Of a DNA stretch of 64,000 nt, positions 46,951 through 64,000 are shown piece by piece (the first letter of the stretch is position 1; every line of letters begins with the position of its first letter). The position numbers and the translations under genes are program-made. Source of the stretch: Bremerella sp. P1 (GTDB taxonomy: Bacteria > Planctomycetota > Planctomycetia > Pirellulales > Pirellulaceae); the NCBI RefSeq assembly GCF_028748185.1, contig NZ_CP118164.1, positions 2,852,001-2,916,000 of the forward strand, written 5' to 3'. Below the pieces are notes generated by a model. That model ran no database searches. It saw only the letters and a list, made by a program, of their open reading frames with translations, and was not told the DNA's origin.

Positions 46951-47589
46951 TTAGGGGACGGTTCCTTCTTGTAGGTAGGGTTGCAGGGCTTCTTTCAGGT
47001 TGGCCCGGGCACGGGACAACAACGACTTAATCGCTTGGACCGACATGCCCATGGTCTCCGCGATGTCGGCATAGCTCATCTCTTCAAACTTCGAGAGCAG
47101 CACGGCCATCCGTTGCCGCTCGTTGAGGGATTCGACAGCCTGACGGACGATCGATCCCATTTCTGACTTATCGAGTTGCCGGGTAGGCATCATTCCGCTG
47201 GCCGCGGTGGCAATTCGCTCCATCGGGTCAGCCGGCTGGCTGCCAGACTGCTCGGCCGGGTTGGTGACCTGGACTTCCTTGCGGCGAGCCAGACTACGGC
47301 GAGCGTTGCTGGCGACGTTGTTCACGATGGTGAAAAGCCACGTCGAGAACCGCGAGCCGGGCACGTACGTCTTTCGCGAGCGATAAACGCGCATAAAGAC
47401 ATCCTGAGCCAGGTCTTCGGCTAGATCCCGCTTACTCACCAAATGTTCCAGAACGGTGACGACCCGGCGCTGGTATCGGAGCATCAGCTCTTCGAACGCA
47501 GCCGCGTCGTCATCGCGCACCAACAGCATGAGCCGGACATCCGGATCTTGCAGTTCGTATCTTCGGGCAGTCGATTCCGAAATCGACAA
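46951..47589 (-). CDS. ECF-type RNA polymerase sigma factor
   Basis: 212 residues from TTG 47589, with GGAG upstream. Region 2 carries FEELMLRYQRRVVTVLEHLV and DLAEDLAQDVFMRVYRSRKT, then FSTWLFTIVNNVASNARR. Region 4 is LNERQRMAVLLSKFEEMSYA with the helix-turn-helix ETMGMSVQAIKSLLSRAR. There is no region 3. It directs RNA polymerase to the regulon controlled by the anti-sigma protein encoded downstream. The exact ECF group cannot be assigned without a search. Confidence 0.95.
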   Translation of the reverse strand: MSISESTARRYELQDPDVRLMLLVRDDDAAAFEELMLRYQRRVVTVLEHLVSKRDLAEDLAQDVFMRVYRSRKTYVPGSRFSTWLFTIVNNVASNARRSLARRKEVQVTNPAEQSGSQPADPMERIATAASGMMPTRQLDKSEMGSIVRQAVESLNERQRMAVLLSKFEEMSYADIAETMGMSVQAIKSLLSRARANLKEALQPYLQEGTVP

Positions 47590-47921
47590 AACATCTTCTC
47601 CGCGAGCCGACGTGACAAGGACAATCCAAGGAGCAGCAGCGCCTTGAAATTCAGTCTAGGGATTGGCTTCGGCAAAAACTAGCAGCCTGATCCCTAACCA
47701 AGCTGCTGTGAGTCGCGTCCGCGTCGGATTTTTCATCACAAGGAGCATTCATCCTGGGGCGCAATCAAAGAAACCCCGATCGCGTGTTAAGGTTCTGCAG
47801 CACCCTCGAAAGAGTGGGGAGCAAGATGGAAATGGGATTGGTTGCCTGCATGAAAGGGTTGGCGGGTATTTTTTGTAGTTACGGCCATACTCTCAACTAA
47901 AACGGAGTAAGTATTTTCTTT

Positions 47922-47937
47922 TGGCACGCCTGTTGCA
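47922..47937 (+). promoter_or_regulatory. Consensus sigma-54 promoter
   Basis: TTGGCACGCCTGTTGCA (47921-47937) matches the -24/-12 consensus TGGCAC-N5-TTGC exactly, with ten bases between the GG at 47923 and the GC at 47935. The start of transcription is expected near 47948. No annotated gene begins within 600 bases downstream. Confidence 0.75.
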
Positions 47938-47947
47938 TATACGTCTA

Positions 47948-48176
47948 GCATCCTAACGGAAACTGAGACAGGGTCGGAACAGAGAAGAGGATCCTTGATA
48001 ACAGGGGCCGGTTTTAAGAAGAGGCACTCCGGTTTTAGACTTTAATCCTTTAGAGGCACTGGGTTAAAGTCGTTCCGAAAGGATGATAAGAGGCTTGAGT
48101 TGGAAGGATCTCCCCCTTCCATCCCTAATAGAGCAGGCGAGTTCGTTTAACAGAGACGACTCGCCTGTTTTATTTT
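47948..48176 (+). ncRNA. Candidate sigma-54-dependent small RNA
   Basis: Bounded by the sigma-54 promoter and an intrinsic terminator at 48134-48176. It contains repeated words: CCGGTTTTA twice, AGAGGCACT twice, and several AAGAGG. It can fold helices GACTTTAA/TTAAAGTC and TGGAAGG/CCTTCCA. The only ATG frame (48083-48193) crosses the terminator. It could instead be the leader of the gene at 48555. It is not a known RNA family that I recognise. Confidence 0.5.
48134..48176 (+). terminator. Intrinsic terminator of the candidate small RNA
   Basis: A 9-bp stem CAGGCGAGT (48134-48142) with ACTCGCCTG (48159-48167), 16-base loop, followed by TTTTATTTT. It is oriented for plus-strand transcription. 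Confidence 0.78.
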
Positions 48177-48554
48177 GCGCGTTGCAAAATTGAGCAGTGT
48201 GCAATTCTGATACGCCCCGCGTGGGGGTGTAGGTGCTGCGAAATGCGATACCAAATCGAAAAAGCAAAATTCAGGATAAAAAAACACCGTTTTTGTAAGT
48301 CGGAATAATCTACTCGAATTTCGTAGAATAGATGAGTAGTCCCGCACCTTGTCCGCTAGCGGGGAAAAACTCGCAGAAATCCTTCCGATTCCGGAAAATC
48401 CCCGAGTACATTCATAGTACAAGCTCGTTTATCCAGGTTGAGTTACGGCATTATCGCAATGTCTAGTCACGATAGTAGCTCACAATGGACAGACCTAACT
48501 CGTTATGCACGAGGGCTTTTCGCCGTCCATTTTTAGTCGTAGAGAGGTATCCCC

Positions 48555-50225
48555 ATGTCGCGCTGGCAATTTCTTCCCGTTACGTTCGGCGTCGTGCTCG
48601 CAATGACCGCGGGCTTGAGTGCTGCTGATAAAGCTGAAGATTACGGCATCCCTCAGGTTGCTACGATCAACGAGAAGATTCGTCTCGGCTGGGAAGACTA
48701 TGGAATTTCGCCATCTCCCGAAGAGATTGATACCGTTTGGGCCCGTCGCTTGTTTCTCGACGTGCTGGGACGTGTCCCTTCGGTCGAAGAGCTGAATGAG
48801 TTCCAGCGAGATCGCGGCAAGGACAAAAAGAAGAACCTGGTCGACAAGCTGCTCTTCGACGAGAAGTACGCTGAAGAGTATGCCCGCAACTGGACCACCA
48901 TTTGGACCAACGTCCTGATTGGTCGTAACGGCGGTACTGACAACAACTCGCAGATCAGCCGTCCGGGGATGCAGAAGTATCTGCGTGACAGCTTTGCTCG
49001 AAACAAGCCATACGACCAAATGGTCAAAGAGTTGGTGACCGCGACCGGTGCCAACACGCCTGGCATGCCCAACTTTAATGGTGCTGTCAACTTCTATATG
49101 GACAAACTGGCCGAAGATGGTGTTCAGGCGACCGCTAAGACGGCCCAGATCTTCCTCGGTATGCAGGTTCAGTGCACCCAGTGCCACAACCATCCGTTCA
49201 ACGAATGGAAGCAGGAAAAGTTCTGGAACATGAACGCCTTCTTCCGTCAAACGCGTGCCCAACGTGGTCAGATGCCTGTCGGTGGCGACGACAACATGCG
49301 AGCGATGACGCTCAACAACGTCGACTTCATGGGTGAAGGCCGCAACATCAACAATGCTGAAATTTACTACGAACTGCGTAACGGCCTGTTGAAGGTCGCT
49401 TATCCAGAATTCCTGGATGGTCAGAAGATTCCGACCAGTGGTCGCGTTTCGGAGGTCAATCGTCGTGACGAACTCGCGAAGTTCATCGTCGATTCCGAAA
49501 ACCTGCCTGAAGCGATTGCCAACCGGTACTGGGGTCACTTCCTCGGTTACGGCTTCACCAAGCCTGTCGATGACATGGGTCCACACAATCGCCCAACGCA
49601 TCCAGAATTGGTCAGCTACTTGGGCGAGGAAGTTCGTAACAACAGCTTCAACCTGAAGGATCTGATTCGTTGGATTACGCTGAGCGAAGCTTATGGTCTC
49701 TCCAGCCGCATCACCAAGGCCAACGCCCTGGACGATCCGACGGTCGGCGAGCCACCGAAGTTCAGCCACTTCTACCTGCGTCAGATGCAGGCCGAACAGT
49801 TGTACGAGTCGCTGCTCGTTGCCACCGAGGCCCACAAGACTCGCGGCAACTACGAAGCTCAAGAAAAGAAGAAGAGTGAATGGATGCGACAGTTCGTCAC
49901 CGCCTTCGGAACCGATGAAGGGGACGAAGCGACGACCTTCAACGGTACCATTCCTCAGGCTCTGATGATGTTCAATGGCGACTTGGTCATGGACGCCGTT
50001 AGCACGAAACAAGGTAGCTTCATCCACCGCATGGCCGCCGAAGGTCGCGACGGTAAAGAAGCAATCAATCACTTGTACATGGCAACCGTTGCTCGACGCC
50101 CAACGCGAAACGAGCTGCAAGCTGCCAACTACCTCATTGGTGTTCACAAGGGAGACATGGCCAAGGCCATGCAAGATGTCTTCTGGGCTCTCCTGAACAG
50201 CAACGAGTTTATTTTGAATCACTAA
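48555..50225 (+). CDS. DUF1549/DUF1553 (PSD1-type) exported protein
   Basis: 556 residues from ATG 48555, with AGAGAGG seven bases upstream. The signal peptide is about 1-24 (AMTAGLSAADKAEDYG). DUF1549 starts near 40 and includes WARRLFLDVLGRVPSVEELN; the motif QCTQCHNHPFNEWKQEKFW follows with a CxxCH that may bind heme. DUF1553 makes up the C-terminal half (SGRVSEVNRRDELAKFIVDS, with FVTAFGTDEGDEATTFNGT). These proteins are very abundant in Planctomycetes and always paired with DUF1501 proteins, as here. Their biochemistry is not known. They lack the N-terminal PSCyt cytochrome domain seen in longer relatives. Confidence 0.93.
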   Translation: MSRWQFLPVTFGVVLAMTAGLSAADKAEDYGIPQVATINEKIRLGWEDYGISPSPEEIDTVWARRLFLDVLGRVPSVEELNEFQRDRGKDKKKNLVDKLLFDEKYAEEYARNWTTIWTNVLIGRNGGTDNNSQISRPGMQKYLRDSFARNKPYDQMVKELVTATGANTPGMPNFNGAVNFYMDKLAEDGVQATAKTAQIFLGMQVQCTQCHNHPFNEWKQEKFWNMNAFFRQTRAQRGQMPVGGDDNMRAMTLNNVDFMGEGRNINNAEIYYELRNGLLKVAYPEFLDGQKIPTSGRVSEVNRRDELAKFIVDSENLPEAIANRYWGHFLGYGFTKPVDDMGPHNRPTHPELVSYLGEEVRNNSFNLKDLIRWITLSEAYGLSSRITKANALDDPTVGEPPKFSHFYLRQMQAEQLYESLLVATEAHKTRGNYEAQEKKKSEWMRQFVTAFGTDEGDEATTFNGTIPQALMMFNGDLVMDAVSTKQGSFIHRMAAEGRDGKEAINHLYMATVARRPTRNELQAANYLIGVHKGDMAKAMQDVFWALLNSNEFILNH

Positions 50226-50299: not shown

Positions 50300-51568
50300 A
50301 TGAGTTTTGCTCCACAGGGGATGACCCGACGTCACTTCATGTCGCACATGGCTGGTGCATCCGCCATGATCGCTCCATCGCTGATGATGGGAAGTGCTAT
50401 TCAGGCTAACGCACAAGAGTTGAAGAAGCGTGGCAAGAGCTGCATCATGCTTTGGATGGGTGGTGGTCCGAGCACGATGGATATCTGGGATCTTAAGCCA
50501 GGTACGAACACGGGTGGTCCTTTCCGTCCGATCAGCACCAAGGGTGATCTGCAGATCAGCGAACACATGCCAATGACCGCCAAGGTCATGGATAACCTTT
50601 CGGTCGTTCGCTCGATGAGCACCCGCGAAGCGGATCACGGTCGTGGCCGTTACTACATGCACACCGGTTATGTGCCGAACCCAAATATCGAACATCCTAG
50701 CTACGGTTCGGTGATCGCTCACGAACTGGCCAGCGACCACAACGAATTGGAAATTCCACCATTCGTTTCCGTCGGTGGTGGTAGCGTCGGTCCAGGTTTC
50801 CTGGGTATGTCCTGGGCTCCTTTCACTGTTAGCAGCAGTGGTCAGGTTCGTAACCTGGGCATGAAGGGCTGGGGCAATGAAACCCTGCAAAGCCGCCTGG
50901 AAATGCTGCGGTTGATCGAAGGTGGCTTCGTCAATCAAAACCGCGGTCCGGCTGCCATGGATCACGCTAAGATCCTGGATAAGACCGTCAAGCTGATGAC
51001 CAGCGATCAGATGAAGGCCTTCAAGGTCAACGAAGAACCAGAAGAAATGAAAGAGTTGTACGGTCAAGATGGCTTCGGTCGTGGTTGCTTGCTCGCTCGC
51101 CGTCTGGTTGAAGCTGGCGTTCCGTTTATCGAAGTTGACCTCGGCGGTTGGGATAACCACCAGAACATCTTCAACACGTTGGCCGATAACAAGCTGCCTG
51201 TGCTTGATCGTGCGATGAGTGCTTTGGTCACCGACCTGAAGCAACGTGGTCTGCTGGAAAGCACCACGATTGTTTGGATGGGTGAATTCAGCCGAACGCC
51301 ACGCATCAACGGTAATACCGGTCGTGATCACTGGGCTCGCAGCTGGAGCACCGTGGTCGGTGGTGGTGGTATCAACGGCGGCATTGCGGTTGGTGAAACC
51401 AGCTCGGATGGTACTCGCGTTGAAACCGAACCATACAGCTCGGAAGACCTGATGGCCACCGTTTGCCGTGCAATGGGTATCTCGCTCGATACCACGTTCA
51501 CCAGCAAGAGCGGACGTCCAATGAAGATCGCCAATGGCGGTAAGGTTATTAAGGAATTGATCGCCTAG
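50300..51568 (+). CDS. DUF1501 exported protein (Tat substrate)
   Basis: 422 residues from ATG 50300. The twin-arginine signal MTRRHFMSHMAGASAMIAPS suggests export of a folded, perhaps metal-bearing, protein. The DUF1501 body has CIMLWMGGGPSTMDIWDLKP, STREADHGRGRYYMHTGYVP and GEFSRTPRINGNTGRDHWAR, in which Asp and His residues resemble the sulfatase/alkaline phosphatase fold. It is 74 bases downstream of the DUF1549/DUF1553 gene, the standard planctomycete pair. The role is unknown; a hydrolytic activity is plausible by fold. Confidence 0.93.
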   Translation: MSFAPQGMTRRHFMSHMAGASAMIAPSLMMGSAIQANAQELKKRGKSCIMLWMGGGPSTMDIWDLKPGTNTGGPFRPISTKGDLQISEHMPMTAKVMDNLSVVRSMSTREADHGRGRYYMHTGYVPNPNIEHPSYGSVIAHELASDHNELEIPPFVSVGGGSVGPGFLGMSWAPFTVSSSGQVRNLGMKGWGNETLQSRLEMLRLIEGGFVNQNRGPAAMDHAKILDKTVKLMTSDQMKAFKVNEEPEEMKELYGQDGFGRGCLLARRLVEAGVPFIEVDLGGWDNHQNIFNTLADNKLPVLDRAMSALVTDLKQRGLLESTTIVWMGEFSRTPRINGNTGRDHWARSWSTVVGGGGINGGIAVGETSSDGTRVETEPYSSEDLMATVCRAMGISLDTTFTSKSGRPMKIANGGKVIKELIA

Positions 51569-62647: not shown

Positions 62648-64000
62648 ATGAACCAAGCCCAACTGCTGCTTATTGACGACGACCGCCATGTCTTGGATTC
62701 GATGGGAAGTTGGCTGCGCGAAATTGGTTATGTGGTCGATCAGGCCTCTAATCTGAATCAAGCCATCGCCCTGATCGACGATCGTCCGTACGACCTGATC
62801 CTGGCGGATGTGCGTTTGGGGGACGAGGACGGCTTTGATGTGTTGCGACATTGCCACACGCATCACCCTGGTACCACGGTGATCATGATTACCGGTTACG
62901 GAACGGTGGAGACCGGTATCGAGGCCCTGCGAGCTGGTGCGTTCGATCTACTCACCAAGCCGTTGATCGACGAAGAATTGGAGATGGCCATCCAGCGGGC
63001 ACTCTCGCAACAGAAGGTAATGCAAGAAAATAAGCAATTAAAGGAACAACTCGATCTGCGATTCGGGCTGGAAAATATTATTGGCCACGACCACAGAATG
63101 TTGCGCATTTTTGACATGGTCGATAGTGTTGCCGACACGCGAGCCACCGTTTTGATCACCGGAGAGAGCGGAACGGGTAAGTCGCTACTGGCCCGAGCCA
63201 TCCATCGCCGCAGCAATCGTCGCGACCAACCGTTCATCGAAGTGGCTTGCGGTGCACTGCCAGAAAACCTGCTCGAGAGCGAACTGTTCGGTCACGTCGC
63301 CGGCTCCTTCACCGGAGCAACCGGCAATAAAGTCGGTAAGTTCAAAGCGGCTGATAAGGGAACGATCTTCCTGGACGAAATCGGTACCGCTCCGCTGAGC
63401 ATGCAGGTCAAATTGCTTCGCGTGCTACAGGAACTTCAGTTCGAGCCAGTTGGTGGAACGGAAACGGAAACGGTCGATACGCGTGTCGTTCTGGCCACCA
63501 ACGAAAACCTGGCGAACCTGGTCGATCGTGGCGAGTTCCGTCAGGACCTGTTTTACCGAGTCAACGTGATTAACTTGGAGCTGCCCCCGCTGCGGGAACG
63601 TATCTCCGACATTCCACGCCTGGCCGATCACTTCCTGGCGGAAGTTTGCCAGGATACAGGCCGCCGCGTGCAAGGCTTCTCAAGTGAAGCGGTTGCCGCT
63701 TTGCAGCGTTACAAGTGGCCAGGCAACGTGCGAGAACTGCAGAACGTGGTCGAACGAGCCGTGCTGCTGAGCAAGAACGAAGAGATCACGCCAGACGATA
63801 TGCCGTCGTCGATCGCTTCGGGAGCTCCTGTCTCGGTCAGCCGAAGCACCGGCACGTCCTTGAAAGAAGCTCTGGAAGGCCCAGAGCGACAGATCATCCG
63901 CGAAGTACTGGAATCGAACGGCTGGAACCGCAACGAAACGGCCGACCAACTGGGTATCAACCGCACGACGCTCTATAAGAAGATGAAAAAGCTCGGTCTC
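62648..64000 (+). CDS. Sigma-54-dependent response regulator, NtrC family (C-terminus beyond window)
   Basis: ATG 62648; 451 codons are in the window with no stop. The receiver domain has LLLIDDDRHVLDSM and phosphoacceptor Asp54. The AAA+ domain carries Walker A GESGTGKS (172-179), Walker B GTIFLDEI (238-245) and the sigma-54 contact loop as GSFTGA (219-224), with Ser where GAFTGA has Ala. RWPGNVRELQ-type sensor II appears as YKWPGNVRELQNVVERA. A Fis-type helix-turn-helix (NRNETADQLGINRTTLYKKM) ends the visible part. It should activate sigma-54 promoters when phosphorylated. Confidence 0.94.
   Translation, partial: MNQAQLLLIDDDRHVLDSMGSWLREIGYVVDQASNLNQAIALIDDRPYDLILADVRLGDEDGFDVLRHCHTHHPGTTVIMITGYGTVETGIEALRAGAFDLLTKPLIDEELEMAIQRALSQQKVMQENKQLKEQLDLRFGLENIIGHDHRMLRIFDMVDSVADTRATVLITGESGTGKSLLARAIHRRSNRRDQPFIEVACGALPENLLESELFGHVAGSFTGATGNKVGKFKAADKGTIFLDEIGTAPLSMQVKLLRVLQELQFEPVGGTETETVDTRVVLATNENLANLVDRGEFRQDLFYRVNVINLELPPLRERISDIPRLADHFLAEVCQDTGRRVQGFSSEAVAALQRYKWPGNVRELQNVVERAVLLSKNEEITPDDMPSSIASGAPVSVSRSTGTSLKEALEGPERQIIREVLESNGWNRNETADQLGINRTTLYKKMKKLGL

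Follow-up and report, generated by a model that had tools for sequence, protein, structure and literature searches.

A probable sigma-54-dependent small RNA in Bremerella sp. P1 that may act as a multi-site sponge of a conserved planctomycete small RNA

Several described RNAs resemble, in one respect or another, the RNA reported here. SroC is a sponge of GcvB that pairs with and counteracts another sRNA, and it comes from an operon with both sigma-70 and sigma-54 promoters (PMC9731577). CrcZ of Pseudomonas is an RpoN-dependent decoy RNA whose repeated A-rich motifs titrate Hfq and which is switched on by the response regulator CbrB (PMC8395346), and the Qrr RNAs of Vibrio are sigma-54-dependent small RNAs with the LuxO site TTGCAWWWTGCAA (PMC10162802). 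The Rhodopirellula-1 motif is a candidate RNA motif in Planctomycetes and Proteobacteria that is listed without an Rfam accession (PMC2864571), and the table of one review gives 8 sRNA families for the PVC group versus 345 for Proteobacteria (PMC9029176). Regulatory RNA of the Planctomycetes is nearly blank, and we describe here one concrete case in which a conserved sRNA is matched by a likely sponge. The likely sponge comes with a promoter, sites and a candidate enhancer and has an anchor in DUF1549/DUF1501 proteins of unknown function. We consider it likely that the segment analyzed here is a sigma-54-dependent small RNA acting as a multi-site sponge (decoy) of the conserved sRNA, with the transcript, the pairing in the cell, the titration, the enhancer and the link to the operon all being inferred.

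Analysis of the window, i.e., the whole 64,000-nucleotide stretch of the Bremerella sp. P1 genome (G000), confirmed the exact sigma-54 -24/-12 element reported in the first-pass annotation, TTGGCACGCCTGTTGCA, at 47921-47937 on the plus strand. It has the TGGCAC-N5-TTGC form with correct spacing and contains the single zero-mismatch match in the window to TGGCACGNNNNTTGC; a search allowing up to two mismatches gave 22 matches versus 24.3 expected by chance. The intrinsic terminator claimed downstream in the same direction is also present, as supported by folding and alignment. It consists of a strong hairpin at 48127-48174 and a T-rich tail that ends at 48176, ~230 nt 3' of the sigma-54 element, and we think that a simple terminator scan passed over it on account of its long, interrupted stem. 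The inferred RNA would thus span 47948-48176 (plus strand, ~229 nt), its 5' end being inferred from promoter spacing without transcript data. No plus-strand ORF of at least 40 aa lies inside 47940-48176 in the ORF list, in agreement with the earlier view that there is no credible gene between promoter and terminator; three ORFs on the minus strand (54, 67 and 91 aa) extend over the ends of that interval. The 229-nt segment folds better than its shuffles (z = -4.0, 0/200 as good).

By DNA search, each of the eight other genomes of the genus has the segment, at 85-95% identity, and short traces occur in other genera. Loss of the promoter from close relatives had been named beforehand as a result that would refute a small RNA; the element was found in 9/9 genus genomes, with a varying spacer and, in G005, an altered -12 side, and the RNA body and terminator are likewise kept in all nine. 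The genus alignment of the RNA (9 sequences, 229 columns) has a mean column identity of 94% and contains single-base gaps, and its AGAGG blocks are invariant, so the internal repeats noted earlier are real and conserved. Qrr, CrcZ and CsrB are families in Rfam. Rfam covariance models gave no match in the window at the gathering score, and the best sub-threshold score for the segment was 18.3 bits where 38.2 were required. At E<=10, the segment and the partner RNA described below gave chance-level matches only, and the partner had no match at the gathering score. No published work on either RNA was found in the open-licence literature, to which that search was confined.

The repeats are explained by a second RNA. 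Positions 47967-47990 matched, at 92%, a second place in the Bremerella sp. P1 genome and in many relatives. This place (G000:C1:3885824-3885847) is antisense to the segment and lies within a conserved, terminator-ended RNA, inferred from sequence and unlinked to the window locus, which we called the CU RNA (G000:C1:~3885748-3885877; L002:1425-1554, plus strand). A promoter-like, sigma-70-like footprint resembling TGGACA-N16-TATCAT lies upstream of it in 9/9 genus sequences, and its 3' end with the terminator reads TTCGGCCTCTTCTCTGTTCCGGCCCCGTCG-loop-CGACGGGGTTTTTT. Both footprint and terminator are conserved; the transcript length of ~130 nt assumes a start 7 nt after the footprint, as there are no transcript data.

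To describe its spread, a covariance model was built from a 60-nt 3' module using 30 aligned modules, in which the identical letters are by construction because the modules were chosen by exact match. The model matched 249/396 genomes of the order at E<=0.01, representing 123/144 genera, with listed places at 5.3e-24 to 8.1e-18; the weakest matches include chance ones. Upon reading, the weak matches in G150, G155 and G160 were tRNA 3' ends and several others were unrelated terminators, and these were rejected. An exact 20-base CU pattern was found in at least 120 stretches of a named genome collection. Among the 120 matches listed, 110 were by rule of the CU type, 4 of the sponge type and 6 other; 78 of the 80 records listed had planctomycete titles (including Gemmataceae, Isosphaera, Paludisphaera and Singulisphaera), one was Candidatus Kuenenia and one was just titled "bacterium". 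The CU RNA is found across the Pirellulales and also in Gemmataceae and Isosphaerales.

Consistent with a sponge, for which sites complementary to a separate sRNA are expected and were found, the sigma-54 RNA carries four AGAGG-type sites on the plus strand. Site 1 (47967-47990) is complementary to the CU RNA over 24 nt, apart from a single wobble and a single mismatch (calculated duplex -42.3 kcal/mol). Site 2 (48004-48025), GGGGCCGG-TTTTA-AGAAGAGGC, pairs on either side of an internal loop (-35.7 kcal/mol). Site 3, AGAGGC at 48052-48057, and site 4, AAGAGGC at 48088-48094, give weaker calculated duplexes with their flanks (-10.6 and -16.4 kcal/mol, respectively). The consensus fold predicts a closed multi-branch domain (47949-48085) in which an outer stem, 47949-47960 paired with 48074-48085, encloses hairpins A, B and C. 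Site 1 is held in the predicted loop of hairpin A (47976-47989), the AGAAGAGGC part of site 2 in that of hairpin B (48013-48027) and site 3 in that of hairpin C, whose loop (48049-48060) is closed by a stem of 48038-48048 with 48061-48071 having one pair changed on both sides. Site 4 is predicted to be single-stranded and is followed by a small hairpin and then the terminator. The fold that shows the sites in loops is that of the alignment consensus and not the minimum-energy fold of the single sequence. Covariation is thin in the consensus fold, with 2/67 pairs changed on both sides; the single-sequence fold has 3/78 such pairs, a number matched by 102/500 shuffles.

A motif repeated in loops could instead bind a protein. 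Decoys of CsrA/RsmA carry repeated GGA in hairpin loops. By reading, the loops here hold AGAGGC or GGAACAGAGAAGAG and no GGA is repeated across them, so the RNA does not qualify as a decoy of that kind. A broader possibility is that the repeated AGAGG loops bind some RNA-binding protein, the complementarity to the CU RNA being secondary. Such an RNA would be CrcZ-like, and the combination of a short repeated loop motif with sigma-54 control is indeed as in CrcZ (PMC8395346). The pairing of site 1 over at least 20 nt and of site 2 on two flanks, however, exceeds what a short protein motif needs, and we regard a protein decoy as quite improbable, even though certain RNAs of the family described below keep their motif in genomes where no CU RNA was found.

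Loci found through their site cannot give a fair estimate of the pairing, and upstream regions were also located through the downstream DUF1549 gene. Its best match was at E<=2e-194 in 18/18 genomes and at E<=1e-150 in 26/30 genomes; in the second set G262 had two matches, G216 a partial one and G146, G165, G263 and G023 none. This made 44 upstream regions readable without using the site. In this operon-found set, 15/23 sigma-54 RNAs outdid all 200 of their shuffles in pairing with the CU core (11/15 and 4/8 in the two batches, with G009 and G079 placed by their site). For the remaining eight, the shuffles that paired as well numbered 2 (G020), 4 (G160), 9 (G155), 11 (G115), 25 (G150), 53 (G147), 107 (G025) and 143 (G101) of 200, and G101 and G115 do have a CU RNA. 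Within the genomes of the co-occurrence count given below, all shuffles were beaten by 11/14 RNAs with a CU RNA in the same genome and by 2/6 without (G145, G009). The figure for all 50 RNAs, 44/50, overstates the case since most of those loci were found through their site; in the same 50, separate 7-nt complementary sites averaged 3.4 per RNA versus 0.50 in shuffles. One CU core was used for every genome in these tests.

The two RNAs also tend to occur together. Based on operon-found upstream regions, the sigma-54 RNA was present in 14/17 genomes with a CU RNA and in 6/20 without (p = 0.0018). CU RNA calls were made by the model at E<=1e-10 in 15 genomes and by pattern only in G097 and G171, without which the count is 12/15 versus 6/20 (p = 0.004). 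Absence of the sigma-54 RNA meant no promoter match within 1500 nt, the first base also being allowed to be C. The count covers 37 of the 44 regions and omits G151 (region cut short), G025, G035 and G152 (CU state unclear), and G139, G122 and G216 (CU model not seen to be scored). These p-values are indicative only because the genomes are related and were partly picked by their CU state. A sigma-54 RNA without a CU RNA having been found was seen in G150, G155, G160, G145, G147 and G009, and a CU RNA without a sigma-54 RNA at the operon in G029, G092 and G078. The CU segment varies in G148, G164, G262 and G078, and we saw no case in which one RNA had changed to compensate for the other; by reading, the variant CCUCUUUUCUGUUCC of G148 and G164 leaves wobble pairs.

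A strict family-wide pattern of the promoter plus CAGAGAAGAGG matched 16/241 genomes, one of them (G033) likely by chance, and it was replaced by an order-wide pattern. Promoter plus site was then found in 29/396 genomes of the order, in 17/144 genera, versus 2 matches for the reversed pattern, and in a Gemmataceae contig (L228). Three of the 29 (L138, L152, L154) appear chance-like. The remainder, from five families (f1, f3, f7, f12, f17), share one plan with site 1 GGGGYCGGRACAGAGAAG, in most a site 2 of the form GGGGYCGG-N4-7-GAAGAGG, in some an extra AGAGGC, and a GC-rich terminator. Promoter, complementary sites and terminator thus recur jointly in genera whose RNA is otherwise different, and for this reason, and without an Rfam match, the original proposal of a new small RNA driven by sigma-54 remains the best reading of the locus.

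Another form, class II (g56, g80, g28), has GGAAGTGGTTCGCC...GGCGGAAYAGAGACGAGGCAGTGC with one constant C mismatch to the CU RNA and mostly one long site. This sequence is strongly conserved at L100, L101, L102, L364, L371, L380, L381 and L383. These are the RNAs that keep their motif, AGACGAGGCAGTGCC, in G150, G155 and G160, and their persistence there means that they may have a further function. Complementarity by itself gives no direction, and together with the mostly single site of class II it leaves room for the reverse arrangement, in which the sigma-54 RNA has some other function and the CU RNA serves to silence it. The presence of several redundant sites fits titration of the CU RNA, though, and the CU segment has the same letters in different orders while the body of the sigma-54 RNA varies; we therefore find this arrangement improbable.

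Targets of the CU RNA itself were sought as GAGAAGAGG shortly before an ATG. This pattern was matched in 9/9 genus genomes, about twice as often as its reversed control, and hardly any place recurs. Of nine places read in the Bremerella sp. P1 genome, one was start-region-like, G000:C1:3819454, at the start of MNSRQIRSNPLARRRSAFQLL...; there GAGAAGAGGC (L281:655-669) immediately precedes the point where a predicted protein of >200 aa starts. The place recurs in 4/9 genus genomes and 9/300 shuffles paired with the CU RNA as well, and based on its sequence it is a candidate mRNA target and no more. Two further observations come from other genomes. In G029, whose operon has no sigma-54 RNA within 1500 nt, CGGAACAGAGAGGAGG lies directly before an ATG with AAGAAGAGGC upstream (L070:1071-1086; G029:C1:315970), possibly in the leader of a CU target. 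In G030 and G221 (L078 and L105, both g23), CGGAACAGAGAAGCGG immediately precedes a terminator-like hairpin, which could be a short sponge or a regulated 3' end.

DUF1549 and DUF1501 proteins are large planctomycete families. Downstream of the RNA, on the plus strand, are genes for a DUF1549 (PSCyt2) plus DUF1553 (PSD1) protein (48555-50225, by domain match and orthologs) and a DUF1501 protein (50300-51568, by domain match), and by eye there is a weak possible operon promoter at 48301-48329 (TAGAAT at 48324-48329) that is similar in most genus genomes. Upstream, on the minus strand, lies a divergent gene for an ECF-type sigma factor (46951-47589, by domain match and neighbor search), which among 52 loci searched is a neighbor in only 14, all of g1, g19 and g21. 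The first-pass annotation had allowed that the segment could serve as leader and attenuator for the DUF1549/DUF1501 operon, i.e., the 5' part of its mRNA, with pairing to the CU RNA deciding passage through the terminator. As to place, this proved right for most loci in tblastn searches with the window proteins: 30/37 site-found loci, many of them close relatives, have DUF1549 downstream on the same strand (with DUF1501 where the locus reaches), starting ~400-860 nt after the promoter. The operon was unseen in G083, G064 and L228, but there <800 nt were readable.

The attenuator itself found no such support. In none of 34 RNAs did the body contain a 7-nt complement to the 5' arm of the terminator (16/50 had no terminator by the rule used), so no antiterminator was detected. 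In G025 the distance from the RNA start to the operon match is 1437 nt, and four RNAs (G027, G011, G393, G052) have no such gene within the 1155-1602 nt readable in each. Moreover, the DUF1549 and DUF1501 starts pair with the CU RNA no better than shuffles (117/300 and 208/300 as good); for the ECF start, 30/300 were as good. Overall, a leader seems unlikely, and we infer that the sigma-54 RNA is a transcript separate from the operon mRNA, although a pure sponge does not explain the adjacency to the operon.

Immediately 3' of the terminator are two imperfect 17-bp palindromes (about TGTAGCAAAATTGAACA), CGTTGCAAAATTGAGCA at 48180-48196 and TGTGCAATTCTGATACG at 48198-48214, identified by motif comparison. 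Their centers are 18 bp apart here and mostly 18-19 bp apart across loci. A by-eye consensus had 59 matches in 35 site-found loci versus 9.3 in shuffles; it was derived from the same 35 loci, and the operon-found regions test it on others. Using a tandem matrix trained on site-found loci, a score >=14 was reached in 20/22 operon-found regions with a sigma-54 RNA (G009 and G097 fail) and in 0/20 without (highest 6.3), omitting G151, whose region is truncated, and G025, in which the RNA lies outside the 800 nt that were scanned. The palindromes are a candidate downstream enhancer, which is an inference without binding data; a natural downstream enhancer behind a terminator would be unusual.

The sigma-54 activator said to be encoded at the end of the window is indeed there: an NtrC-type protein with receiver, AAA+ and Fis HTH domains (PF00072, PF00158, PF02954) at 62648-64000 on the plus strand, the last 33 nt of its gene being outside the window. 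It is a candidate only; the activator domain is matched 16 times in the genome. From an incomplete list (96 proteins, 110 loci) it had appeared confined to RNA-bearing genomes, which a direct search overturned, there being some match in 63/63 genomes. Among the 20 genomes that lack the RNA, 12 contain a full-length match (57-64% identity), and in another six the match extends to residue 390-396. The HTH was readable in 8 of these 18 and looks the same, and a motif rule found nothing in the other 10. Action of this activator at the 47921-47937 promoter is thus neither supported nor excluded.

In the mechanism that we propose, transcription would be switched on at ~47948 by an NtrC-type activator whose binding site is probably the palindrome pair just 3' of the terminator. 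The RNA is predicted to fold with three sites in hairpin loops and the fourth single-stranded, and these sites, whose complementarity was observed, would then pair with the conserved CU-rich segment of the second terminator-ended RNA made from the sigma-70-like promoter. Pairing may titrate the CU RNA or mark it for decay and so free its mRNA targets, which are not identified. The sigma-54 RNA is often kept beside the DUF1549-DUF1501 operon, a proximity that probably reflects a role of the operon in the same response. Given the elements, conservation, complementarity and co-occurrence observed, together with the predicted fold, the sigma-54 RNA is most likely a sponge of the CU RNA. We are evenly divided on the wider hypothesis of an ancient two-RNA circuit of the Planctomycetia, in which a class-wide CU sRNA with a near-unchanging pairing segment is countered by a dedicated sigma-54 sponge with loop sites and an enhancer behind its own terminator, often beside this operon. 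To our knowledge, sponges of model bacteria are mostly narrow in their spread, and if our interpretation is true, the presence of one in several families of a single order would demonstrate that circuits of this type can be old.

Qrr RNAs act on mRNAs. They are sigma-54-dependent, as is inferred for the RNA described here, and the LuxO site TTGCAWWWTGCAA resembles its palindromes, but the activator sites of Qrr genes lie upstream and the palindromes here lie behind the terminator. The Rhodopirellula-1 motif is likewise a candidate RNA, reported for both Planctomycetes and Proteobacteria. CrcZ is an RpoN-dependent decoy RNA with repeated motifs, as is inferred for the RNA here; it titrates the protein Hfq via A-rich motifs, whereas the motifs here are complementary to an RNA. 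The sigma-54 RNA is like SroC in being an RNA that would pair with another sRNA and counteract it, and differs in being apparently a free-standing gene with its own sigma-54 promoter and several sites, in another phylum.
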